Below are positions 22,921 to 52,197 of a DNA stretch of 64,000 nucleotides, in pieces (position 1 is the stretch's first letter; the number at the start of each line of letters is the position of its first letter). This stretch comes from Candidatus Aminicenantota bacterium (GTDB lineage Bacteria > Acidobacteriota > Aminicenantia > Aminicenantales > Saccharicenantaceae), in the NCBI GenBank assembly GCA_026393975.1, contig JAPKZD010000009.1, positions 248,001 to 312,000 on the forward strand, given 5' to 3'. A program made the position numbers and the translations under genes. The notes below the pieces were generated by a model, which made no database searches, was not told the origin of the DNA, and saw nothing but the letters and a program-made list of their open reading frames with translations.

Positions 22921-22941
22921 CCGGTAAATTAACTTTACCGG
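22921..22941. promoter_or_regulatory. Perfect 21-bp palindrome, likely operator of the DUF5916 gene
   Basis: CCGGTAAA-TTAAC-TTTACCGG has 8-bp arms. The core GTAAA-N5-TTTAC is the same pattern found near the sigma-54 promoters at 44.5 and 49.8 kb. No acceptable sigma-54 promoter lies between it and the DUF5916 start, so here it may act with a sigma-70 promoter or bind a different protein. Confidence 0.55.
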
Positions 22942-40099: not shown

Positions 40100-43000
40100 A
40101 TGCGCGATCACTCAGGCTTGGGACAGTTCACCACCCGGAACTCGGTCTCGATCGTGTTCATTTGCGCCGCCCTTTGCCTGGCCGGCGCCTTCTCGGCCCT
40201 GACCATCTCCTCTTCGGTTTTCCCCCAAACGGACTTTCCTCGTGTCGTGGTCCTCGTGGACAACGGCGTCATGCCCGCCGACGAGATGATGGCGACCATC
40301 ACCCGGCCCATCGAGGAGGCCATGAAGGACATCCGCGGCGTCGTCACCATCCGGTCGACGACGGGCCGCGGCGCGGCCGAGATCAGCGTCTTCTTCACCT
40401 GGAACGCAGACATGATCCAATCGGAACTCTATGTCCTCAGCCGGCTGTCCCAGATCCGGGCCGCCCTGCCCGCGACGGTCGAGACCTCGGTCTTCCGGCT
40501 GACGTTTTCGGCCTTCCCCATCCTCGGTGTCAGCCTCACCAGCAACACGCGCGGCATCACCGAGCTTTGGGAGACGGCGCGCTACAATCTCAAGCTCCGC
40601 TTCCTGCGCATCCCCGGGGTCGCCCGCGTCGACCTCGTCGGCGGCCGGACGCCCGAATATCACATCGTGGTCGACCCACTCCGGCTCGGCGCGGCCGGAC
40701 TCACGCTGGCCCAGGTCACGGCGGCCCTGACCGACAACAATATCGTGGCCTCGGCCGGCATGCATGAGGAGAACCACACGCTCTATCTGACCGTGGTCGA
40801 CGGGCGTCTGCGCTCGATCCGGGACATCGAGAATTTCACGGTAACGGTCGCCGGCGGGCATCCGGTCCTTGTCCGCGATTTCGCCCGGGTCGAACGGGGA
40901 CCCGAGCCCGTCTTCAACGTCGTCACCGCCGACGGCGAGAACGCGGTCCTGCTCAACGTCCGCAGCCAGCCCGACGGAAGCACGCTCGACATCGCCAAGG
41001 CCCTCAACAAACAGCTGGCCGATCTGAAACGGGAACTGCCCCCGGACATGAAGCTCGCTTTTTTCTACGATCAATCCGAGATCGTCCGCGCCTCGGTCGC
41101 GAGCGTTTGGGAGGCCATCCTCTTCGGTCTGATCCTATCCGTGGTCATCCTGTACTTCTTCTTGAAGAACTGGGGGACGACGTTGGTCGCGACACTGGTC
41201 ATCCCCGTCACGGTGCTCGTCACGCTCCTCGCCATGAGAATCGCCGGCCTGAGCTTCAACCTCATGACCCTGGGGGGCATCGCCGCGGCCATCGGCCTTG
41301 TCATCGACGACGCCATCGTCGTCGTTGAGGCGATCCACACAAAACGGACGGCCGGAAAACCGCGTTTGGAGGCCGTCCGGGACGGCATCGGCGAGATCCT
41401 GCGGCCGCTCGTCGGCTCCACGCTCACGCCGGTCGTCGTGTTCATCCCTCTGGCCTTTCTGGAAGGGATCACGGGCGTTTTTTTCCGGGCCCTGGCGCTG
41501 ACCATGGTCGTCGCCCTGTTGACGTCCCTGGCCCTGGCCGTAACGCTGACTCCGTCGCTCGCCGCCTGGTTCCTCCGTTCCCGGAAGGACGGAACGAACG
41601 CGCCGCGCGGGGAGCAGGGCGGTCCCCTGCTGCAGCGCGTCATCGGCGTCTACGAGACGGGGGTCCGGGCCTCCCTCAAGCGCCCCTGGCTGACCTTGGC
41701 CGTCTGCGGGCTCGTCCTCCTGGCCGCGGTCTTTCTCTACAGCCGCCTCGAGAGCGAATTCCTGCCGCCCATGGACGAGGGGGGGTTCGTCATCGATTAT
41801 TTCACGCCTCCTGGGACGAGCCTCGCGGAAACCCATCGTCAACTGCTGCAGGCCGAGAAGATTTTGCGGACGGTCCCGGAGCTGGCCAGCTATTCGCGCC
41901 GCACGGGGGCGAGGCTGGCGCTGTCCATCGCCGAGCCGAACACGGGCGATTTCCTGGTCAAGCTGAAAAACAATCGAAAACGGAAAACCGCGGACGTCAT
42001 CTCCGAACTGCGGCAGCGCTTCAACGCGGAACTCCCGGGCTTGACCTGGGAATTCCCGGGGATCCTGGGCGATCTCATCGGCGACCTGATGTGGGCCCCG
42101 CAACCCATCGAAGTGAAATTGTTTTCGACCGATCAGGCCTGGCTCGAAAAAAAGGCGCCCGAGGTCGGGGAAACGATCAAGAAAGTGCCTGGCGTCGTGG
42201 ACGTGTTCAACGGGCTCGTCTACACGGGGCCGACGATCAGCCTGCGCTTGCGGCTGCCCGACGCGCGGCGGTTCGGCCTGACGGCGGCGGATGTCGCCGC
42301 AGTGGCCAGTACGGCCATGCTCGGGCAGACGGCCTCGACCGTCCTAGAAGGCGACCGGGTGGTCGACATCCGGGTCAAAGTCGATCCCGCACGGCTCAAT
42401 CGGTTGGCGAGCCTGCGCGAACTGCCGCTGCGGACGCCGGACGGGACGCTCGTCAAGCTATCCCAGGTGGTGGACATCACGGAAGAGCCCGGCCGGCTCG
42501 AGCTCCGGCGAGAAGACTCGCGGCAGGACGTGGCCGTCACGGCCAGGCTCGAAGGCCGTGACCTGGGAAGCGCCATGGCCGAGATCCGCGATACGCTCGA
42601 TCGGGACAAGACCATTCCTGCGGGCACGATCGAGTACGGCGGCCTCTACGAGCAGCAGCGGGAATCCTTCCGCAACCTGATGATCGTCCTGCTCATGGCC
42701 ATCTTCCTCGTCTTCACGGTCCTGCTCCTCGAGTTCGGCTCGTTCACCGAGCCGTTGGCCATCGTCTTCGGGGCGGTGCTGGCCATGTTCGGGACCATCC
42801 TCGCCCTGTGGATCACGGGGACCTCCCTGAATGTCGTTTCGCTCCTGGGGGCCATCATCGGGGTCGGCATCGTCGCCAAGAACGGCATCCTGATGCTCGA
42901 TTACGTCAAAGCGCTCCGCTCGCAGGGACTGGACCTGGCCGAGGCGTTGGTGCGCTCGGGCAGGCGGAGGCTCCGGCCGGTCCTGATGACCTCGATGGCG

Positions 43001-43168
43001 GCCGCGCTGGGGATGCTCCCCCTGGCTTACGGCATCGGCTCCGGCGCCGACATGCTAAAACCCCTGGCTATCGCCGTCATCGGGGCCCTCTGCATATCGG
43101 TCCTCCTGTCCCTCATCGCCACGCCAACCATCTACTACCTGATGGTCTCACGGCGCAAGGCAGGCTGA
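40100..43168 (+). CDS. RND-family inner-membrane efflux pump
   Basis: 1022 residues, full length for the HAE/AcrB type, with twelve expected membrane segments in two halves and two large periplasmic loops. The proton-relay acidic pair lies in GLVIDDAIVVVEAI in the fourth membrane helix. The ATG at 40100 is four bases after the adaptor stop. No regulator lies next to the operon, so substrate (drug, metal or lipid) cannot be inferred. The gene is intact. Confidence 0.93.
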   Translation: MRDHSGLGQFTTRNSVSIVFICAALCLAGAFSALTISSSVFPQTDFPRVVVLVDNGVMPADEMMATITRPIEEAMKDIRGVVTIRSTTGRGAAEISVFFTWNADMIQSELYVLSRLSQIRAALPATVETSVFRLTFSAFPILGVSLTSNTRGITELWETARYNLKLRFLRIPGVARVDLVGGRTPEYHIVVDPLRLGAAGLTLAQVTAALTDNNIVASAGMHEENHTLYLTVVDGRLRSIRDIENFTVTVAGGHPVLVRDFARVERGPEPVFNVVTADGENAVLLNVRSQPDGSTLDIAKALNKQLADLKRELPPDMKLAFFYDQSEIVRASVASVWEAILFGLILSVVILYFFLKNWGTTLVATLVIPVTVLVTLLAMRIAGLSFNLMTLGGIAAAIGLVIDDAIVVVEAIHTKRTAGKPRLEAVRDGIGEILRPLVGSTLTPVVVFIPLAFLEGITGVFFRALALTMVVALLTSLALAVTLTPSLAAWFLRSRKDGTNAPRGEQGGPLLQRVIGVYETGVRASLKRPWLTLAVCGLVLLAAVFLYSRLESEFLPPMDEGGFVIDYFTPPGTSLAETHRQLLQAEKILRTVPELASYSRRTGARLALSIAEPNTGDFLVKLKNNRKRKTADVISELRQRFNAELPGLTWEFPGILGDLIGDLMWAPQPIEVKLFSTDQAWLEKKAPEVGETIKKVPGVVDVFNGLVYTGPTISLRLRLPDARRFGLTAADVAAVASTAMLGQTASTVLEGDRVVDIRVKVDPARLNRLASLRELPLRTPDGTLVKLSQVVDITEEPGRLELRREDSRQDVAVTARLEGRDLGSAMAEIRDTLDRDKTIPAGTIEYGGLYEQQRESFRNLMIVLLMAIFLVFTVLLLEFGSFTEPLAIVFGAVLAMFGTILALWITGTSLNVVSLLGAIIGVGIVAKNGILMLDYVKALRSQGLDLAEALVRSGRRRLRPVLMTSMAAALGMLPLAYGIGSGADMLKPLAIAVIGALCISVLLSLIATPTIYYLMVSRRKAG

Positions 43169-43199
43169 CCGGACCCGCTTCCCCTCTTCTCGGCTCTCG

Positions 43200-44234
43200 T
43201 TATCTGCCGAATTCAAGCACCATGAACGAGCCCGGGATCACGGCCGGCCGGGGTCGCGGCTGTTCCGCGGTGGGGGCCGGAGCCGGGCCGAATTCCGCCG
43301 TCACAACGAAGACATGGTGCGTCTTGGGATCGAGCTCCATGGTCCGGGCGCGCAGCGCGGTCGGGACCGTCTCGAGGACCGTGTACTTGTCGGCCGATTC
43401 CTGTTTGACCACGGTCAACGTCCCCTCGCCGTTCGAGGCGAAGACGAGACCGGTTCCCGCGTCGTAGCGGACGGCGTCCGGGCCGCCGCCGATCGGGACG
43501 GTCGCGACGACCTTCCCCTTCACGAAGTCCGAGACGACCATCACCTTGTCGCAGACGCTGAAAAGGCGCTTGTTCTTGAGGTCGATGGCCAAGCCGCTCG
43601 GACCTTCCCCGGGCGCGATCGACCACCTCTTCCCGACCTTGAGCGACTTGGCGTCGAAGGCCACGACTTCGCTCTTGTCTTCGTTGTTGACGAAGATGGT
43701 CCCCTTACCGTTCGTCACGGCGAACTCGGGCTTGCCGCCGATGTCGACGGTCCCCACAACCTTGTTCGTGGCCGCGTCAATGGCCGTCGCGTTGGCCGTT
43801 CCGCCGTTGAAGGTGAAGACGCGGCCCGAGAAGGCATCGTACATGACGGCGTCGGGATTCTGGCCGGAAGTAGGGACTTCCGCGAGGATCGCGTGCGTCT
43901 TGAGGTCGAAGACGGAGACACTGTTGCCCCGGCCGTTGGAGATATAGCCCCGGTTCCTCTCCGGGGCGAAGGCCACGCCGTGGACGCCCTTGAGCCCCGT
44001 AATGGCTTGGCCCTTGACGCCGGTCGCGACATCGAGGACCTCGACGGCACTGCCGTGCGTCACGTAAAGGAGGCGCGTCCGCCCGTCCAAAGCCAGGTAG
44101 TCCCAGCCGCCCTCGCCGCCGAGGACATGCTTTTTGAGAAGATGATAGCCGGCCGGCTTCGGCGCCTGGGCGGCGGCGAAGCCGGCGATCGCCATGGTGA
44201 GTAGAACGATCCCACCGACCTTAAAAACTCTCAT
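43200..44234 (-). CDS. Secreted YVTN/YncE-type beta-propeller protein
   Basis: 344 residues with a signal peptide (about 1-22). The mature protein shows six to seven four-stranded repeats (VEVLDVATG, VSVFDLKTH, ATAIDAATNKVVGTVDIGG, VVAFDAKSLKVG) typical of YVTN-type propellers. Such domains bind ligands or proteins at the surface; no active-site motif is apparent. GAGGTGAT precedes the ATG at 44234. Upstream lies the sigma-54 promoter at 44481-44496, but a long leader and a hairpin separate them, so it may use its own promoter (a weak TAGAAT lies about 20 bp before the ATG). Confidence 0.85.
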   Translation of the reverse strand: MRVFKVGGIVLLTMAIAGFAAAQAPKPAGYHLLKKHVLGGEGGWDYLALDGRTRLLYVTHGSAVEVLDVATGVKGQAITGLKGVHGVAFAPERNRGYISNGRGNSVSVFDLKTHAILAEVPTSGQNPDAVMYDAFSGRVFTFNGGTANATAIDAATNKVVGTVDIGGKPEFAVTNGKGTIFVNNEDKSEVVAFDAKSLKVGKRWSIAPGEGPSGLAIDLKNKRLFSVCDKVMVVSDFVKGKVVATVPIGGGPDAVRYDAGTGLVFASNGEGTLTVVKQESADKYTVLETVPTALRARTMELDPKTHHVFVVTAEFGPAPAPTAEQPRPRPAVIPGSFMVLEFGR

Positions 44235-44353
44235 GTCTTAATCACCTCTCATACCATTCTACTCCTTGCGGGCGGCCGGGGCCATACCGGCCCTCTTCGG
44301 CTGTCCCGGGAGCGAATGGCGCGACCGCGTAGACTGCTGGACCGGGCGTTCGA

Positions 44354-44471
44354 GAAAAGGGGAGCGAGGGGTGCCCCCGCGGCATCCCTCGCTCCGGAAC
44401 AAAAAGAAGGAGGGTTATGGAAGGGTATCGGGAATGCGCATGCTCATGAAGCTTGTCATTGGCATCTCAAC
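44354..44471 (-). ncRNA. Candidate sigma-54-dependent small RNA
   Basis: A transcript from the promoter at 44481-44496 would begin with GGG near 44473-44471 and reach, after about 110 nt, a long hairpin (44361-44395) followed by CCTTTT, a plausible terminator. Between them the RNA contains ACCCTCCTTCTTTTT (complement of 44401-44415), an unpaired anti-Shine-Dalgarno stretch, as in small RNAs that block translation. No convincing open frame lies on this strand. The alternative is a long leader of the beta-propeller gene. No expression evidence is available. Confidence 0.35.
44361..44395. terminator. Long hairpin, terminator-like on the minus strand
   Basis: GGAGCGAGGG (44361-44370) pairs perfectly with CCCTCGCTCC (44386-44395), and the stem extends inward by about five more pairs (one G-U on the plus strand) around a five-base loop. 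On the minus strand it is followed by CCTTTTCTC. No T run follows on the plus strand. Confidence 0.6.
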
Positions 44472-44480
44472 CCGAATTAC

Positions 44481-44496
44481 TGCATATTTTATGCCA
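44481..44496 (-). promoter_or_regulatory. Sigma-54 promoter in the gap beside the beta-propeller gene
   Basis: Minus strand TGGCATAAAATATGCA matches TGGCAY-N5-TTGCW with one mismatch (A for the first T of the -12 box). GG-to-GC spacing is correct. A GTAAA-N5-TTTAC palindrome is centred 49 bp upstream. Confidence 0.6.
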
Positions 44497-44537
44497 GTTC
44501 GGAGCCCGGTTTTTCCCCTAATGGAGCGCGGAGGGGC

Positions 44538-44574
44538 GTAAATTCCGTTTACAGGGGGACCTTTCCCGTTTACA
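44538..44574. promoter_or_regulatory. Enhancer-like sites upstream of the 44481 sigma-54 promoter
   Basis: GTAAA-TTCCG-TTTAC (44538-44552) is a palindrome with the same spacing as the site at 49776-49790. A direct repeat of GTTTACA (44547-44553 and 44568-44574, 21-bp period) adds a half-site one helical register further. Such arrays are typical binding sites for NtrC-type activators. Confidence 0.5.
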
Positions 44575-44676
44575 AGCCGCGGGGACCGGCAGAAAAAGCG
44601 TCGCTTGACGGGTACGGCGGGGGGCCGGAGCCTGGCATCCGGATTTTGGACGGGATGGCGGTAAGGTTCAGGCCGC
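44575..44676. other. Remaining intergenic DNA between hairpin region and receiver gene
   Basis: Apart from the elements listed separately, the 44235-44676 gap shows no gene I can support. Open frames on the plus strand here (such as a 33-residue hydrophobic one ending at 44541) overlap the sigma-54 promoter and lack a signal of coding use. Confidence 0.4.
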
Positions 44677-45054
44677 TTATTCCAGGGGATTCCTGGGCTG
44701 AAGGACTCTGTCGATCGAGAGATCGAGGACGTTGAGGTCGAGCGGCTTGACGAAAAAATGGCTGATCGCGAGCCGGCTCATGTCCTCGATCTTGACATCG
44801 TCCGGATAGGCGGTGATCAGCATGGCTTCCCCCTCGAAGCCCTGCTCCCTAAGTTTCTTGATGAGCTCCATGCCGTTCATGTAGGGAAGCTTGTAGTCGG
44901 CGATGACGAGGTCCACCCGCGAGTCCTTGAGCTTGGAAAGGGCCTCCCTCGAGTCCTTGATGGAAGAAACCCTGTATTTCTTGCCGAGAAGCAGGCTGAA
45001 CGTCTTGCGGATGTTTTCGTCGTCGTCCACGATCACGATCTTTTTCGTTGCCAT
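44677..45054 (-). CDS. Stand-alone response-regulator receiver protein (CheY-like)
   Basis: 125 residues forming one receiver domain: acidic pocket at Asp10-Asp11, phospho-acceptor Asp53 in LVIADYKLPYMNG, Thr in MLITAY and Lys in HFFVKPLDL. There is no output domain. ATG at 45054 (MATKKIVIVDDD) is preferred to one at 45105, which would begin inside the promoter. A sigma-54 promoter lies at 45089-45104, so the protein seems to be made under control of an NtrC-type activator, most simply the regulator encoded just upstream (45210-46556). It may serve as a phosphate sink, an adaptor or a brake on the neighbouring kinase. Confidence 0.9.
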   Translation of the reverse strand: MATKKIVIVDDDENIRKTFSLLLGKKYRVSSIKDSREALSKLKDSRVDLVIADYKLPYMNGMELIKKLREQGFEGEAMLITAYPDDVKIEDMSRLAISHFFVKPLDLNVLDLSIDRVLQPRNPLE

Positions 45055-45088
45055 TTGATGTCTATTTCCATCGATCAGCCCTATTAAA

Positions 45089-45104
45089 TGCACCTTTTGT
45101 GCCA
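45089..45104 (-). promoter_or_regulatory. Sigma-54 promoter of the receiver gene
   Basis: Minus strand TGGCACAAAAGGTGCA matches the consensus with one mismatch (G for the first T of the -12 box). The start would lie near 45078, about 25 nt before the ATG at 45054. Confidence 0.7.
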
Positions 45105-45173
45105 ATTCCGGCCGCTGTTCATCAGGGAAAAAAGGGGTCGGGGAACGGCCTCCAGGCAGATTGGCCCAAGATT

Positions 45174-45200
45174 ATTTACAGGCGGGAAAGGGAGTTTACA
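45174..45200. promoter_or_regulatory. Enhancer-like site upstream of the receiver promoter
   Basis: GGAAA-GGGAG-TTTAC (45185-45199) is a near-palindrome of the GTAAA-N5-TTTAC type with one mismatch, centred 88 bp upstream of the -24 box. ATTTACA (45174-45180) and GTTTACA (45194-45200) repeat with a 20-bp period, much like the 21-bp repeat at 44547-44574. Confidence 0.45.
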
Positions 45201-45209
45201 CGGCACGGG

Positions 45210-46556
45210 TCAGGACGGTTCCCCCAAGTCGAGGCCGTATTCCTTGATCTTCTTGTCCAGGGTCGGACGGCTGATCTGAAGGATCTGGCTGGCCCGGGTC
45301 TTGCTCCCCTTGACGGAGCCGAGGACGTACTGGATGTACTTTTTTTCGACCTCTTCGAGCGGGACGAGATCGTCGCCGAAGGACCGCCTTTCGTCGGGCT
45401 CGAGCGGCAGGTTCTCCTTAAGCACGACGTCCCCCTTGGCCAGGATGACGGCCCGGGTCAGGGCGTTCTCGAGCTCGCGGACGTTTCCCCGCCAGGGAAT
45501 TTCGACGAGGATCTTCATGACTTCGGGCGGGACCTTGCGGACGTTGCGGCGGAGGTCCCGGTTGATCTTTTCGAGGAGGTAGGCGACGAGGTCGGGGATG
45601 TCCTCCCGCCGTTCCCGGAGCGGCGGCAAGGTGATCTCGACGACCTTGAGCCGGTAATAAAGGTCCTCGCGGAACTTCCCTTTTTCGATCAACCCCTTCA
45701 GGTTCTGGTTGGTGGCGGCGATGATACGGGCCTCGGTTTTGAGGACCTTCTCCCCCCCGACCTTCATGAAATCCCGGGTCTCGCTGATCCGGAGGAGCTT
45801 GCTCTGGAGATTGGGAGAGACGTCGCCGACCTCGTCCAGGAAGAGCGTGCCCTTGCCGGCGATCTCGAACTTGCCCTTGGTCTCGCTGACGGCGTCCGTG
45901 AAGGCGCCCTTGACGTGCCCGAAGAGCTCGCTTTCGAGGAGGGTGTCAGAGATCGCGCAGCAATTGATGACGATGAACGGCTCGTCCCGGCAGGGACCGT
46001 TGTAGTGGATGGCCTTGGCCACGAGCTCCTTGCCCGTGCCGCTCTCACCCTGGATGAGGACGTTGGTCCGCGTGTTGGCGACGGACCCGATGAGCTTGAA
46101 GACGCCCCTCATCCCGGCCGAGTGGCCGATGATGTTGTCGATCGTGTATTCCTTCTTCTTCTCCTCGACGAGGTAGCTGACCTTCTCCTCCAAGGCCCGG
46201 ACCTGGAAGGCCTTGTCGATCGTCAGATCGAGCTCCGTGGCGTTGAGCGGCTTGACGAGATATTCGAAGGCCCCGAGCTTGATCGCCTCGACCGTCGTCT
46301 TCATGTCGTCGAAGGCGGTCATGATCAGGATGATGGCCCGGCGGTTGCGTTCCTTGATCTTGCGCAGGACCTCAAGCCCGTCGATATCGGGGAGGCGGAG
46401 GTCGAGAAGGACGAGGTCCGGGCAGGATTCCGCGAAGGCCCGGACGCCCCCCTCTCCGGTATCGGCCGTGGCCACCTCGAAGCCTTTTTTCCCGAGCTGG
46501 GAGGCCAGGGTTTTACGGACGAGCGGGTCGTCTTCGATGATCAGGATGGATTTCAT
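45210..46556 (-). CDS. NtrC-family sigma-54-dependent response regulator
   Basis: 448 residues in three domains: receiver (1-120; Asp52 in LVLLDLRLPDIDG), AAA+ activator (about 140-370; Walker A GESGTGKE, GAFTDA loop that contacts sigma-54, Walker B TLFLDEVGD) and a Fis-type helix-turn-helix (about 410-445; TRASQILQISRPTLDKKIKEYGL). The GAFTDA loop is complete, so it should open sigma-54 promoters. Its ATG overlaps the kinase stop (ATGA), making it the kinase's cognate partner. Predicted targets are the sigma-54 promoters at 49702-49717, 45089-45104 and 44481-44496. Confidence 0.95.
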   Translation of the reverse strand: MKSILIIEDDPLVRKTLASQLGKKGFEVATADTGEGGVRAFAESCPDLVLLDLRLPDIDGLEVLRKIKERNRRAIILIMTAFDDMKTTVEAIKLGAFEYLVKPLNATELDLTIDKAFQVRALEEKVSYLVEEKKKEYTIDNIIGHSAGMRGVFKLIGSVANTRTNVLIQGESGTGKELVAKAIHYNGPCRDEPFIVINCCAISDTLLESELFGHVKGAFTDAVSETKGKFEIAGKGTLFLDEVGDVSPNLQSKLLRISETRDFMKVGGEKVLKTEARIIAATNQNLKGLIEKGKFREDLYYRLKVVEITLPPLRERREDIPDLVAYLLEKINRDLRRNVRKVPPEVMKILVEIPWRGNVRELENALTRAVILAKGDVVLKENLPLEPDERRSFGDDLVPLEEVEKKYIQYVLGSVKGSKTRASQILQISRPTLDKKIKEYGLDLGEPS

Positions 46557-48013
46557 GACGCCTCCTCCGTTGGGATGAGAATGACGAACACGCTCCCCCT
46601 CCCCCGCTTCTTGCCGACTCGGATCGTCCCGTTGTGCTGTTCGACGATCTTCCGGGCGTTGGCCAGGCCGAGCCCGAAGCCGGAGGGCTTGGTCGAGAAG
46701 AACGGCTCGAAGATATTCTCGCGATCCTTTTCCGGGATACCGGGCCCGTTGTCCGAGATCCGGATCAGGGCCTTCCTCTTTCCGCCTTCCTCGACCGGCT
46801 CACAGACGATGCTGATCTTTCCGCCGGCCTCGAGGGCCTCGTGGGCGTTGCGGAGGACGTTGAGGAAGACCTGGCGCATCTTGTCGCCGTCGACGTGGAT
46901 CTGGGGCAGCCCCTCGGCGTAGGTCGTCTCCACGACGACCTTCTTCCGGGCGAGCGTCTCCCTGAGCAGCTTGAGCGATTCCTCGACGATCTGTTCGATC
47001 GGCCACCGCTCCAGGCTGAGCTCCTGGACGCGGGTGAAATTGAGGAGCTCCTTGATGAAGCGCTCGATCTGGTCGATACCCTCGAGCGACAGGCCGAGGT
47101 GGGCCTTGATCGTCTCTGCGAAGCTCTCCTCTTCGGCGACTTTCTGGACGTTGAGCTTGACGGAGGTGAGGGGGTTCCGGATCTCGTGGGCGATCGTCGC
47201 CGCCATGCGCCCAACAGAGGCCAGTTTCTCGTGCTGGACGAGCTTCCGGTTGGCGTCCTCCATCCGGTCACGGGCGTGGAGGAGCTGGCCCGTCATTTCG
47301 TTGAAGCTCCGGGCCAAGTCGCCGACCTCGTCCCTCGAAGCGATGGCGATGGCCTGGGAGAAATCCCCCTTCGAGATCCTGACGGTCCCCTCGACCAGCC
47401 GGTGGAGGGGCCGGGTGATCCGCCTGGCCAGGAGCGTCGCCCCGGCGATTCCGAGGAGGAACCCGCCGGCCCCGATGAGCAGGAGAACCTTCTGGACCTC
47501 GCGTAGCTTGGTGTACATGGGCTCCAGGGACATGCCGATCTTGACCGAGGCCCATTTCTCGTCCTCATTCTGCGGAAAAATGGGAATTTCGACCTCGCGG
47601 ACCCTCATCCTCCGGCCCTCGATTTGGATCACTTTTTCTTCGGAAAACGGGGGGTCATCGCGGGTGACACCTTCCAGGACGCGGCTCCCCTGGCCAAGGT
47701 CTCCCTGTCCGGGGAGGAGTTCGCCGGTGACATACGCCCGGCCCGCCCTGTCGTAGAAAATGATGTAGGGCATGTCTTCGTCGATGTGGTCGTCGACGTA
47801 TTTCTGGATCGCGGCCTGGTCCGGGCGAAAGAGAGACTGGTAGTTGGCGTCCTTCATGCTCTCGGCGAGAAGGAGCGCCCGGGCTTCCGCCTCCTCCGAG
47901 AGTATGGCGGCTTCGCGGCCTTGGCTGACGACAAGGACGGCCCCGAAGAGAAGGCAGACAAGCAGGGTAATCCAGAAGACGAGGCGCGTAGAAATCGATA
48001 TCTTGAGTTTCAC
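46553..48013 (-). CDS. Membrane sensor histidine kinase
   Basis: 486 residues from GTG at 48013, ten bases after the upstream stop. TM1 (about 8-30), a periplasmic Cache-like sensor (about 35-185; DMPYIIFYDRAGRAYVTG), TM2 (about 190-212), HAMP (about 213-265), then H-box TIAHEIRNPLTSVKLN, N-box NVLRNAHEAL, G1 DNGPGIP, F-box FEPFFSTKPSG and G2 GFGLGLA. The form resembles NtrB/AtoS-type kinases that pair with NtrC regulators. It is translationally coupled to the regulator gene and preceded by a periplasmic binding protein in the same operon, which may present ligand to the sensor. Confidence 0.93.
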   Translation of the reverse strand: MKLKISISTRLVFWITLLVCLLFGAVLVVSQGREAAILSEEAEARALLLAESMKDANYQSLFRPDQAAIQKYVDDHIDEDMPYIIFYDRAGRAYVTGELLPGQGDLGQGSRVLEGVTRDDPPFSEEKVIQIEGRRMRVREVEIPIFPQNEDEKWASVKIGMSLEPMYTKLREVQKVLLLIGAGGFLLGIAGATLLARRITRPLHRLVEGTVRISKGDFSQAIAIASRDEVGDLARSFNEMTGQLLHARDRMEDANRKLVQHEKLASVGRMAATIAHEIRNPLTSVKLNVQKVAEEESFAETIKAHLGLSLEGIDQIERFIKELLNFTRVQELSLERWPIEQIVEESLKLLRETLARKKVVVETTYAEGLPQIHVDGDKMRQVFLNVLRNAHEALEAGGKISIVCEPVEEGGKRKALIRISDNGPGIPEKDRENIFEPFFSTKPSGFGLGLANARKIVEQHNGTIRVGKKRGRGSVFVILIPTEEAS

Positions 48014-48023
48014 GGTGTTCCGC

Positions 48024-49637
48024 TCATTCCTCCAGCCAGATGTCTTTGACGTCGAGAAAGACGAACCCCATGGCCGGGAGGCGCACGCCTCGGACCCGGG
48101 GCAGAAAGGCGATGCGGATGCGTTCCGAGAACAAGGGGATCGAGGGCACCTCCTCGTACAGGGTCTTTTCGATCTCCCGGAAAAGGCCCGCCCGCATTTC
48201 CCAGCTCGGCTCAACCTCGGCCTGGTCGAGCAGGCCGTCGAGCCGCGGGTTCGCATACCGGGCGCTGAGCTCGTTGACGACCGACCGGGAATGATAGAGG
48301 GGGACGATGATGTTCTCGGGGTCCGGAAAGTCCATCGTGTATTCGAGGAATTTCAGGTAGGGCCCCCGGACGCTCAGGATGTCCTCCGGCTTTCGAAGGT
48401 ACTTCACGTCGAGCTTGATCTCCATCGCCCCGAGCTGCCGCCCGAGCTCCCTGGCGAAACGGGAATCCTCCTCGGTCCGCGGCGACGAGAAAATGAGCAT
48501 GACCGTCAGGTCTTTTCGCCCGCCTCCCGGCAGGAGCCGGTCGAGGAGGAGCTTGGCCGTAACGGTATCGGTGAACGGGCCGACGGCCTTGGGGAAAAAA
48601 CCGGGGAGCAGGGGCGGAATGTAGTTGTCCAGGACCTGGTGGAGGGTCGAGGGCGAGTCGCAGGCCTCGGCCAGGCGGGCCTTATCGAGTCCCAGGGCCA
48701 GGGCCTTGCGGACCTCGGGACGGTCGAACGGGGGAATATCGCAACTCAGGGCCAGGAAGAACGATTTCAGGGTGCTGTTCTCCAGGATCGGGTAACGCTT
48801 GCGAAGGATTTTCTCCGAAGTCACCGAGATCAGGTGGACGTCCCCCTCCTCGAACTGGTCATCCGTGAAATGGGGGCTGTACTCGATGGCCGAGAGGTAG
48901 GGCTTCTTGCCAAAATACGACGGGTTCCGTTCGAGCCGGACGCCCAGGATGTCCAGGCGGGGACTGCGGATCCATTCGGCGAACTGGAAGGGACCCGTCC
49001 CGACAGGCTTATGGAAGAAGCCCCGGCCCTGGCTCTCGAGGAGGTCTTTCGGCAGGACCTTGCAGTAGTACATCCCCAGGAGATAGAGGCCGGAGACGTA
49101 GGGACGTTTCCAGCGTATTTCGAAGGTCGACTTGTCGATCACCCGGAACCCCGTGACCTCGGACGCTTTGCCCTGCCAGAACTCCTCGGCACCGACGACC
49201 TTTTGGGTAAAGTATTGGTAGTAGGTATTGCCCGGCCTGTTCTTGACTAGCCGCTCGAGGGAGTACTTGACGTCGTCGGCCGTGAGATCCCGGCCGTTGT
49301 GGAAACGGACGCCCGGCCGGAGGAAAAACGTGATGCGCGTCCCGCCGTCGGAGACCGTCCAGTACTCGGCCAGGGAGGGCGTTGGGTTGAAATGGCTGTC
49401 GAACTTGACCAGCCCGTCGTAGAGCTGTTCGCAGATGAAGTAATGGGATACCTCGGCCGGGTCGAAGACCTGGTTGAAAGGCGTCAGGTACGCCTTGATC
49501 CGCAAGGTCCCGTTGTACCTCGGCGTGGGTTCGGGGTTTTGCTGGACGAGCGCGGCCGGGGAGCCGGACGCGGCGATGGCGATGAGCAGAGCGAGGAACG
49601 ACAGGGAAAAAGGGCGTTCGCGGCGGGCGGTCAGCAT
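48024..49637 (-). CDS. Periplasmic peptide-type solute-binding protein (SBP family 5)
   Basis: 537 residues with a cleavable signal peptide (about 1-30) and no lipobox. It shows the family-5 pattern for oligopeptide or nickel binders (FNQVFDPAEVSHYFICEQLYDGLVKFD, FHNGRDLTADDVKYSLERL, GTGPFQFAEW). No ABC permease or ATPase gene follows; instead it is the first gene of an operon with a histidine kinase and NtrC-type regulator. A co-sensor role is therefore likelier than transport alone. A sigma-54 promoter lies 65 bp upstream of the ATG. Confidence 0.9.
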   Translation of the reverse strand: MLTARRERPFSLSFLALLIAIAASGSPAALVQQNPEPTPRYNGTLRIKAYLTPFNQVFDPAEVSHYFICEQLYDGLVKFDSHFNPTPSLAEYWTVSDGGTRITFFLRPGVRFHNGRDLTADDVKYSLERLVKNRPGNTYYQYFTQKVVGAEEFWQGKASEVTGFRVIDKSTFEIRWKRPYVSGLYLLGMYYCKVLPKDLLESQGRGFFHKPVGTGPFQFAEWIRSPRLDILGVRLERNPSYFGKKPYLSAIEYSPHFTDDQFEEGDVHLISVTSEKILRKRYPILENSTLKSFFLALSCDIPPFDRPEVRKALALGLDKARLAEACDSPSTLHQVLDNYIPPLLPGFFPKAVGPFTDTVTAKLLLDRLLPGGGRKDLTVMLIFSSPRTEEDSRFARELGRQLGAMEIKLDVKYLRKPEDILSVRGPYLKFLEYTMDFPDPENIIVPLYHSRSVVNELSARYANPRLDGLLDQAEVEPSWEMRAGLFREIEKTLYEEVPSIPLFSERIRIAFLPRVRGVRLPAMGFVFLDVKDIWLEE

Positions 49638-49701
49638 GGAGATGGCCTCATGATAACGAAAACCCGGAAAAAATGCATCTTGCGGTCCTCTCTCAACTCA
49701 G

Positions 49702-49717
49702 AGCAAGGTTCATGCCA
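49702..49717 (-). promoter_or_regulatory. Sigma-54 promoter of the SBP-kinase-regulator operon
   Basis: Minus strand TGGCATGAACCTTGCT matches the consensus fully and is nearly identical to the promoter at 1353-1368. The start lies near 49692, about 55 nt before the ATG. Since the operon encodes a sigma-54 activator, this implies positive autoregulation. Confidence 0.75.
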
Positions 49718-49774
49718 GAGCCAAAGAGATCTAGCCTGGAAACCGGCCACTGCGGCGGATGAAAATTAGAAAAA

Positions 49775-49791
49775 CGTAAAATATCTTTACG
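49775..49791. promoter_or_regulatory. Palindromic enhancer-like site of the SBP operon
   Basis: CGTAAA-ATATC-TTTACG, perfect 6-bp arms, centred 66 bp upstream of the -24 box. It lies in a short AT-rich stretch after the convergent dipeptidase gene end. Confidence 0.6.
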
Positions 49792-49812
49792 GACCGGCCG
49801 GAGAGTCCGGCT

Positions 49813-51054
49813 CTATTTCTCCGCCAAGTCGATGACCTTCTGGAAGACGCGGAAGAAGTTGCCGCCCCAAATCTTCTCGATCTCGCGGTCCGTGTAGCCG
49901 CGCCGGAGGAGTTCCTCGGTCACATGGATCATACCGCTCACGTCGTCACAGCCGACGACCCCGCCGCCGCCGTCGAAGTCTGTGCCGATCCCGACGTAAT
50001 CCACGCCGACGACCTTTCTGACGTGGTCGATGTGGTCGACGAGATCATGGACGTTGGCCCGGACCTGGGGGAACTTCTCGTTGACGGCCTGCCGCTCGGC
50101 CATGGCCTTCGTCCGGACGGCCTCGTCCTTGATCTGGCGGATGTTGCCGTACTTGGCCTCGAGCTCCTTCATGGCCTTTTCCCGTTCGGGGATGACGGGA
50201 GGCGTTTTGACATAGGCGGACAGGAAGCAGATCTGGACAACGCCGCCGTTCTTGGCCAAAGCCCGCAACTGGTCGTCCGTCAGGTTCCGGGGGTTGTCGC
50301 AGACGGCCCGGGCGCTCGAATGGGAGGCGATGATCGGGGCCTTGGTCACGGCCAGGATGTCCGAAATGGATTTTTCCGACGCATGGGAAATGTCGATGAT
50401 CATGCCCCGCCTGTTGCATTCCGCCACGACCTCGCGGCCGAACGCGCTCAGGCCCCTGTCTGCGGGATCGCTGCGGTCGGTCGAGGAATCGCAGATATCG
50501 TTGTCCGAGGAATGGCAGAGAGTGATATAGCGGACGCCCTTCTCGTAGAAGAGCCGAATGAGGGCCAGGTCCCGGCCAATGGGATAGCCGTTCTCGAGGC
50601 CGATGAAGGCCGTGAGCTTGCCCTCTTTTTTGAGGCGCCGGGCGCCCTGGGGGTCGACGGCCAGCCCGATGACCGGAGAGTATTCCTCCGTCATTTTGCG
50701 GACGGCCTCGACGGCCCGCAGAGCGCTGTCCTTGGCCTTGGCGTAGGCCTCCGGCGTCACGGGACCTTGGCCGACGAAGGCGGCGAAGAACTCGGCGTCG
50801 AGGCCGCCTTCGCGCATCCGGGGCAGGTCGATCTTGCCGACGCCGCGCGCGCTCGGGTCGTGCCGGTCGCCGATCTTCCAGTCCGTCCTGAGCAGGCTGA
50901 ACGCGGTGTCGCAGTGGGTATCGACGGTCAGCATCCTCTTGTGCAGTTCGCGCGCTTTCTCCTCGACGGTCGGAGGCGTCTTGGCGACGTTGCAGGCCGA
51001 GACGAGGAAGGCTAAGGCGATGGCCGGACCCATTCCAATTTTGCGAATCTTCAT
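49813..51054 (-). CDS. M19 membrane dipeptidase, lipoprotein
   Basis: 413 residues. Signal peptide with lipobox LVSAC, then the amidohydrolase barrel of renal-dipeptidase type: TVDTHCDT (metal ligands His/Asp), Glu in FIGLENGYPIG, His in IDISHASEKS, His in IIASHSSARAV, Asp in IGTDFDGGGG. Hydrolyses dipeptides, in the periplasm. An ATATCAGGAAC ribosome site precedes the ATG at 51054; a -10 TATAAT (51132-51137, minus strand) lies 78 bp before it. Confidence 0.93.
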   Translation of the reverse strand: MKIRKIGMGPAIALAFLVSACNVAKTPPTVEEKARELHKRMLTVDTHCDTAFSLLRTDWKIGDRHDPSARGVGKIDLPRMREGGLDAEFFAAFVGQGPVTPEAYAKAKDSALRAVEAVRKMTEEYSPVIGLAVDPQGARRLKKEGKLTAFIGLENGYPIGRDLALIRLFYEKGVRYITLCHSSDNDICDSSTDRSDPADRGLSAFGREVVAECNRRGMIIDISHASEKSISDILAVTKAPIIASHSSARAVCDNPRNLTDDQLRALAKNGGVVQICFLSAYVKTPPVIPEREKAMKELEAKYGNIRQIKDEAVRTKAMAERQAVNEKFPQVRANVHDLVDHIDHVRKVVGVDYVGIGTDFDGGGGVVGCDDVSGMIHVTEELLRRGYTDREIEKIWGGNFFRVFQKVIDLAEK

Positions 51055-51216
51055 TGATGTTCCTGATATCCCCCGGAGAGAAACATCTCCCCCATCGGCA
51101 TGAGGCCACAATTGGCGGGCATTAGACGGGCATTATAGCAGATTCGCGGCTTAGGGGAGATGCCCGGAGGAGACCGATCTTTCCAAGGGACCGCGTTTGA
51201 ATGATCGGGGAGACGT

Positions 51217-52197
51217 TTATCGGCTCGGCGGGGCGGGGCGCGACAGAACGTAATAGTTGCCGGAAACGCTTCCCTTCGCTTTCCGGAAATCGACCACCCG
51301 GTAGCCGCGGGCGAAGAGGCCCTGGAAGACCTCGCGAGTGGCCAGCCTCCAGTCGACGGGGATTCGGCGCACATCCACGTCGGCCACATCGGTTTCCTGG
51401 AGCATCCTGTAGAAATCCAAAGGGACTCGGACGAGAAGGACGTCTCCCCCGACGTTCCCATCGGTCCGCTCCACGACCTCGAGATCGAGCTCGGAGCTCT
51501 TCCCCGTCACCCGCCGGATGCCGGCCCGGATGGGTTGGGGCGCGGCAAGCGCCGCCTCGAGGTCATAGGCCGGCTCTCTCCTTCCCGCCTTCTTTTCGAG
51601 GTCCCAGGACATCAGGAAGCGGTCGGTGGGGACGTCCAGCCGGTTGAGGAGGCCGCCGTATTCGCCGTAGGTCGCCACCCGGTATTCGAGGACGTCCATG
51701 CCGAAATGGTGGACGTTGCGGTGGGCGTTGACCCCGGTCAGCGGATCGTAGGTGCAGATCACGGTGGAGACGCCCAGGATGTCGAGGACGAGCTCCCTCT
51801 GAAACTCTTTGAGCTGGAGGCCCAGCCCGTAACTCTGGTAGGCCTTCCGGACCCCGGCGTACTGGGAGTAGAAACGCAGGTTCGAGCGGTCGCGGAAGCC
51901 GGCCTCCTTGTCGCGGACGCCGACGAAGCCGTAGCAGAAGCCGACGAGGTTTTTCCCGTCGGCCACGAAGCCCCGGCCGGGGGCTTCGACGAAAGCACCG
52001 ATGAAGAGGCTCCCCCCCTCGTGGAAGACGTTTTCGCACATCATGTTCCGCGTGCCGGCAAGGCGGTCTTCGGGGAAATCCCAGATCTCGTTGCGCAGGT
52101 CCTCGTACATCCTGTAATCTTCGGATTCGTGGGAGGTCTCGACGCGCAGGAGGAACCGTCTGTCTCGGACGGCGACGGTTTTTTCCAGGTCTCTCAT
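51217..52197 (-). CDS. GNAT-fold acetyltransferase-like protein
   Basis: 326 residues. The N-terminal 200 residues resemble a GNAT domain (NLVGFCYGFVGVRD as strands 2-4; SQYAGVRKAYQSYGLGLQLKEFQRELV as the acetyl-CoA loop, cf. Q/RxxGxG/A; TYDPLTGVNAHRNVHHFGMDVLEY). The C-terminal 120 residues form a second alpha/beta unit. It resembles a group of predicted acetyltransferases (COG3375-like); the acceptor is unknown. It is not in an operon. Confidence 0.75.
   Translation of the reverse strand: MRDLEKTVAVRDRRFLLRVETSHESEDYRMYEDLRNEIWDFPEDRLAGTRNMMCENVFHEGGSLFIGAFVEAPGRGFVADGKNLVGFCYGFVGVRDKEAGFRDRSNLRFYSQYAGVRKAYQSYGLGLQLKEFQRELVLDILGVSTVICTYDPLTGVNAHRNVHHFGMDVLEYRVATYGEYGGLLNRLDVPTDRFLMSWDLEKKAGRREPAYDLEAALAAPQPIRAGIRRVTGKSSELDLEVVERTDGNVGGDVLLVRVPLDFYRMLQETDVADVDVRRIPVDWRLATREVFQGLFARGYRVVDFRKAKGSVSGNYYVLSRPAPPSR

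Follow-up and report, generated by a model that had tools for sequence, protein, structure and literature searches.

We begin with the three described systems that lie closest to the locus studied here. In the LuxP-LuxQ-LuxU-LuxO-Qrr pathway of Vibrio (e.g. PMC2680268), the binding protein (SBP) LuxP is of the sugar type, LuxQ is a hybrid kinase with LuxU as its intermediary, and the Qrr RNAs depend on Hfq and, in V. harveyi, are present in multiple copies. The Enterobacteriaceae have QseE-QseG-QseF with GlmY, where the activator binds TGT-N12-ACA dyads upstream of the sigma-54 promoter of the sRNA, and the E. coli qseEGF operon is reported as not autoregulated (PMC6075780, PMC8745638). AioX-AioS-AioR senses arsenite, with AioX as the proposed sensor and the arsenite oxidase genes as targets, and for its own expression aioXSR relies on RpoD and RpoE2 promoters instead of sigma-54 ones (PMC5908839, PMC6011840). 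Literature searches found no papers on Aminicenantes with sigma-54, and none on SBP_bac_5 with a histidine kinase and NtrC.

The locus lies in a window of 64,000 nucleotides (the whole stretch of DNA analysed) of a 2.95-Mb draft genome (G000), and its relatives by the regulator protein bear the name Candidatus Aminicenantes, Saccharicenans among them. The preliminary description of this DNA had proposed an operon of three genes, encoding a family-5 SBP, a Cache-like histidine kinase and a regulator with a GAFTDA loop. Pfam domains and a reading of the loop find all three genes, on the minus strand (Table 1). The SBP scores 174.9 bits against the PF00496 cut-off of 32.4, which makes it an SBP_bac_5 protein; its N-terminus is hydrophobic with no obvious lipobox cysteine, and its nearest solved relatives are peptide, heme and nickel binding proteins. 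The kinase start is best taken as the GTG at 48013, 11 bases past the SBP stop, and the ATG of the regulator overlaps the stop codon of the kinase. The regulator domains exceed their Pfam cut-offs and the loop is of the GAFTGA type, placing the protein in the NtrC family.

Among 126 loci from relatives (many of the incomplete ones are cut by contig ends), the order dipeptidase - SBP - kinase - regulator - receiver is much more frequent than any other. The M19 dipeptidase is found 5' of the SBP gene in most complete loci of the order, and the single receiver gene 3' of the regulator gene in most loci. Sequence comparison therefore indicates that the arrangement of M19 dipeptidase, SBP_bac_5, Cache kinase, NtrC-type regulator and single receiver is conserved across the Aminicenantes order; the preliminary description had suggested checking the conservation of the three-gene order. 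Identity across the Aminicenantes loci is 72-96% for the regulator, and that of the SBP drops to 36-50% outside the genus. Because the single receiver is conserved after the regulator, we count the operon as four genes, plus a conserved dipeptidase neighbour. The three-gene version had missed this fourth gene, and it had also overlooked the upstream dipeptidase and further sites with sigma-54 promoter and dyad, two of them inside the window.

Table 1. Genes, dyads, promoters and putative small RNA of the locus, with one putative target located elsewhere in the genome (positions are those of the window unless a contig is given)
Feature	Position	Strand	Basis or remark
M19 membrane dipeptidase gene	49813..51111	(-)	Pfam PF01244 E 5.6e-107
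P1 dyad CGTAAAGATATTTTACG, putative activator site	49775..49791	(-)	comparison with relatives
P1 sigma-54 promoter TGGCATGAACCTTGCT	49702..49717	(-)	consensus match, kept in relatives
SBP_bac_5 periplasmic peptide-type binding protein, 537 aa	48024..49637	(-)	Pfam PF00496 E 3.5e-51
Sensor histidine kinase: single Cache, HAMP, HisKA, HATPase_c	46553..48013	(-)	Pfam, models, fold searches
NtrC-type response regulator: receiver, Sigma54_activat, Fis-type HTH (HTH_8)	45210..46556	(-)	Pfam
P2 dyad TGTAAACTCCCTTTCCC, one mismatch	45184..45200	(-)	same position in many genomes
P2 sigma-54-like promoter TGGCACAAAAGGTGCA, one mismatch in -12	45089..45104	(-)	conserved position
Stand-alone receiver domain protein, 125 aa	44677..45054	(-)	Pfam Response_reg E 9e-20
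P3 dyad TGTAAACGGAATTTACG	44537..44553	(-)	exact dyad
P3 sigma-54 promoter TGGCATAAAATATGCA, -12 ATGC replacing TTGC	44481..44496	(-)	
Putative small RNA, ~117 nt	44354..44470	(-)	ends inferred from promoter and terminator
P4 dyad and promoter, ahead of 355-aa secreted protein (L093:6393-7460)	G000 C22:7508-7586		exact pattern

Set beside the described systems, the Aminicenantes circuit works like all three and is, by the tests run, a member of none. As in QseEGF-GlmY, a single operon encodes a periplasmic partner, a kinase and a sigma-54 activator, and proposed activator dyads stand ahead of the sigma-54 promoter of a putative small RNA gene that adjoins the operon. However, QseG is an outer-membrane lipoprotein whereas the partner here is an SBP, the periplasmic domain of QseE is helical whereas that of the Aminicenantes kinase has a Cache fold, the E. 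coli operon is reported to be without autoregulation whereas the present one has P1, and glmY lies upstream of its operon whereas P3 lies downstream; Rfam scans of window positions 43000-52000 and of four relatives gave no GlmY match. The likeness to AioXSR is in the order of binding protein, kinase and sigma-54 activator, in one operon and with no permease. The differences are that the aioXSR operon is not itself under sigma-54 control, unlike the Aminicenantes operon with its sigma-54 P1, and that AioX comes from another SBP family, the Aminicenantes SBP matching PF00496 only and giving no homology to AioX. LuxPQ offers the precedent of an SBP presented to a Cache-fold kinase, with an NtrC-family activator, sigma-54 and a small RNA as output, but it employs a sugar-type SBP and a hybrid kinase with LuxU as intermediate, and its Qrr RNAs are multi-copy in V. 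harveyi whereas the P3 RNA is single-copy. The regulator scores 376.6 against the cut-off of 800 of the LuxO model and is not a LuxO orthologue by this measure, and window positions 43000-52000 have no Rfam Qrr match.

The reading that we favour, at a probability of about 0.68, is a three-component circuit running from the SBP through the Cache kinase and the NtrC-type regulator to sigma-54 promoters marked by YGTAAA-N5-TTTACR. The family-5 SBP, which has no transporter, would bind a ligand, a short peptide being the likeliest class; loaded with this ligand, it would engage the Cache domain of the kinase encoded by the adjacent gene, and the kinase would phosphorylate the regulator. By binding YGTAAA-N5-TTTACR, the regulator would switch on its own operon (positive feedback via P1, where P1 exists) and the single receiver, which probably acts as a brake or phosphate sink. 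Its further targets would be a small C/U-rich RNA beside the operon, predicted to pair with ribosome-binding sites, and a beta-rich secreted protein encoded elsewhere. The evidence is comparative and consists of gene order, dyads, promoters, phased spacing, a conserved RNA locus and the absence of a permease; from it we infer the binding by the regulator, the ligand, the contact between SBP and kinase, and the functions of the RNA, the receiver and the secreted protein.

The promoter ahead of the SBP gene (P1) is a full sigma-54 match, as had been claimed. The genome encodes rpoN, the consensus TGGCAY-N5-TTGCW has 20 matches in it versus 3 for the reversed control, and the P1 promoter is kept in relatives as TGGCAT-N5-TTGCT. 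The palindrome CGTAAA-N5-TTTACG had been called perfect, which is correct for its arms and not for its five-base centre, and had been placed 66 bp upstream, which holds when the distance is taken from the centre of the dyad to the upstream edge of the promoter. Across 36 distinct P1 regions the form is YGTAAA-N5-TTTACR, with the arms fixed and the five central bases varying, and the pair of dyad and promoter is present with at most one mismatch in 38 of the 69 assessable P1 loci versus 0 of 82 in a coding-sequence control of the same loci. This co-occurrence suggests that the dyad is bound by the operon's own regulator. As for the positive feedback loop of the preliminary description, comparison backs the upstream dyad at the sigma-54 promoter of the operon, but only some lineages have the P1 loop. 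Saccharicenans and three other family members keep an intact operon and lack P1; feedback is therefore not essential. Instead of autoregulation, it would seem that the RNA and the secreted protein form the conserved core output.

The combination of YGTAAA-N5-TTTACR with a sigma-54 promoter occurs in 69 of the 94 genomes of the order that were searched, usually about two per genome, and its reversed control has no match in any of the 94. The dyad is mostly located ~77 or 88 bp 5' of the promoter, with the distances clustering near 67, 77, 88 and 98 bp. These distances are suggestive of helical phasing, with a Rayleigh R of 0.62 at 10.5 bp (n=77 distinct sites), a statistic that overstates the significance because the sites are related by descent and not independent; the best-fitting period is 11.45 bp, not 10.5 bp. 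In the window's own genome, dyads accompany 3 of the 20 consensus sigma-54 promoters, namely those of the operon, of the 355-aa secreted protein and of a 429-aa secreted protein, in whose dyad one base deviates; the exact pattern of dyad plus promoter occurs twice (P1 and P4). On this comparison, P1 is predicted to be one of at least four sites in a small regulon.

P2 is located between the regulator and receiver genes and is weaker but conserved in position, the pair being found with at most two mismatches in total in 42 of 82 assessable loci. P3 sits immediately 3' of the receiver gene, and of 68 assessable loci, 36 have its pair with no more than one mismatch; in the window both P2 and P3 are degenerate sites. 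Other genera of the family, and also a second family, have homologues of the 355-aa protein of P4 behind the same elements; the protein has no Pfam domain over the cut-off. Its gene adjoins a GWxTD-domain/TPR gene and then a CarboxypepD_reg/TPR gene (L093 3377-6379), and a similar gene set stands beside a VWA-like gene in another region (L054). At G000:C15:173314-173404 (L039), a dyad with one mismatch lies 76 bp 5' of a consensus sigma-54 promoter, behind which is the gene of the 429-aa secreted, outer-membrane-barrel-like protein, a possible fifth target.

Several further sites are recorded in the same genome. A second exact copy of the 17-mer palindrome, centre included, is present within coding sequence at G000:C23:95281-95297 (L054 5282-5298), where it encodes LRKDILR, ~525 bp after a sigma-54-like site TGGCATATTTCTTGCT. 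A rough base-composition estimate makes such a copy unlikely by chance; we nonetheless treat it, tentatively, as a chance occurrence. The window has a consensus sigma-54 promoter without a dyad (TGGCATGATACTTGCT, 1353-1368, + strand) and a dyad with no consensus sigma-54 site adjoining (GTAAATTAACTTTAC, 22924-22938, 5' of a minus-strand gene). This dyad and those at C17:47952 and C17:364109 were set aside as targets, as they have no recognised promoter to pair with.

We turn our attention to the sensor domain of the kinase. The Pfam family sCache_3_2 is matched by 27 of 32 kinase homologues, and by the window's kinase at E 5e-4, below the curated cut-off. A fold search with the full-length kinase was dominated by the catalytic core, and the sensor was therefore folded alone. 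The resulting model (mean pLDDT 83) is similar to the extracellular domain of WalK (Z 13.7, rmsd 3.0, 136 aligned) and to CitA (Z 11.8), and the sensor domains of DcuS and LuxQ also match. The label "Cache-like" is borne out by the homologues and by these matches, and the modelled fold is that of a periplasmic single Cache domain between two membrane helices. By analogy with LuxPQ-like and AioXS-like precedents, the SBP would contact this Cache domain. That the SBP presents its ligand to the kinase, as had been proposed, gains on the side of sensing, while the contact itself is drawn from the precedents.

The putative small RNA behind P3 consists of a GATACCCTTCCATAACCCTCCTTCTTT tract followed by a terminator hairpin (44361-44395) and a T-tract, and folding indicates a strong terminator. 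Every genus member examined carries the C/U-rich GATACCCTTCCATAACCCTCCTTCTTT tract, in almost invariant form. We built a covariance model on the genus plus one neighbour, so that its matches to these are expected by construction; in 11 of 13 genus members it gives a single locus per genome, with E of 1e-15 or lower. The same model matches the P3 locus of most Saccharicenans, which were not used in building it, at a weak E of ~1e-4 to 1e-2. In Saccharicenans the RNA measures ~280 nt; its tract GCCTCCTTTTTGCCCTTCTTTGCCCTTCTTTCC is invariant, and a hairpin upstream shows a few paired changes. Other families have shorter C/U-rich forms behind P3. Rfam gives no match to the P3 region at E up to 1 in window positions 43000-52000 and none at the gathering cut-off in four relatives; the RNA is previously undescribed. 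The unpaired tracts rich in C and U are complementary to Shine-Dalgarno sequences, which suggests translation control, and an Hfq-like gene is found in 14 of 14 high-quality genomes tested.

There is a concern whether the SBP simply serves uptake together with a permease whose genes lie elsewhere, the two-component genes just controlling nutrient uptake, for family-5 SBPs are usually transporter parts and the neighbouring dipeptidase hints at peptide use. The genome, however, yielded no Opp/Dpp-type permease: its nine BPD_transp_1 permeases are of the phosphate (Pst), polyamine (Pot) and tungstate (Tup) types, as judged by sequence and neighbours, and the SBP is the sole PF00496 (SBP_5) protein. 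OppC_N exceeds its cut-off in 0 of 60 relatives versus 10 of 14 control genomes, and since the genomes are draft MAGs this absence is weak in any single one and not weak across the 39 good ones. It follows that nowhere in the order is a transport partner for the SBP evident. The missing ABC partner permease counts against a transport role and not against membership of SBP_bac_5, so that we regard uptake as quite unlikely; the preliminary observation of an operon without transporter genes holds well beyond the operon, and the case for a sensing SBP is strengthened. Even less can be said for the palindrome being part of the terminator of the upstream dipeptidase, unrelated to the SBP promoter. 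In the window the dyad does lie 24 bp past the stop codon of the dipeptidase gene, with TTTTTC behind it. A T-rich stretch, however, comes after just 5 of 41 distinct P1 dyads, the distance from dyad to dipeptidase end varies from 7 to 500 bp whereas that from dyad to promoter stays at 67-90 bp, some P1 loci have no dipeptidase match at all, and the same dyad is found ahead of unrelated genes. The rarity of the T-tracts and the variable dipeptidase distance rule this out for practical purposes.

The nature of the P3 transcript raises similar questions. With a beta-propeller gene next on the same strand 3' of P3 in the window, the transcript could be read as a leader or attenuator of that gene, but the gene 3' of P3 varies among relatives and is often on the opposite strand (L109, L110, L111, L116) while RNA and terminator are kept, which makes a leader very improbable. 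Doubtful, but deserving some weight, is the view that the transcript chiefly serves as mRNA for a small peptide, which would have 77 codons in Saccharicenans and, in the genus of the window, 6-30 codons with PDTLP at the end. The window's RNA holds a short ORF that ends in PDTLP and a stop, with an in-frame start ahead of it in all 11 copies of the genus, and among 16 aligned Saccharicenans sequences one frame is stop-free upstream of the conserved tract, the other two having 2-6 stops each. On the other hand, the last 17 codons in Saccharicenans are identical at nearly all wobble positions, and codons with a single difference upstream of them show 748 replacement versus 250 silent changes, the pattern expected where protein constraint is absent. 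Conservation of the tract in the window's genus continues beyond the stop codon, and the downstream hairpin shows paired changes. The Saccharicenans loci (L125-L143, L182, L184, L190) have an ORF of ~77 codons ending ASFLPFFALLSIPPSFN, open in every copy; it overlaps a stretch of nucleotides in which not even silent positions vary. Since an ORF is present in both well-sampled genera, P3 may be translated, and it may be a dual RNA or one translated for translation's own sake. We give little credence to a bolder proposal, that P3 serves as a regulatory RNA and at the same time as precursor for an exported short peptide (with the PDTLP C-terminus in the genus) that the family-5 SBP senses; if true, it would be a self-amplifying peptide communication circuit in a Gram-negative-type, uncultured phylum.

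Returning to the three-component circuit, the likely site of the activator in these uncultured bacteria apparently fronts the operon, the receiver gene, the small RNA and a secreted protein. Such a circuit would provide a near-complete, testable regulatory system, with sensor, regulator, DNA site, promoters and small RNA, for a phylum without genetics. A family-5 SBP kept by a lineage that has no oligopeptide transporter would be a clear case of an SBP as a receptor, and the whole would be a third independent example of the design of periplasmic partner, kinase, sigma-54 activator and small RNA. The dyad and the RNA model can be used directly to annotate Aminicenantes genomes.
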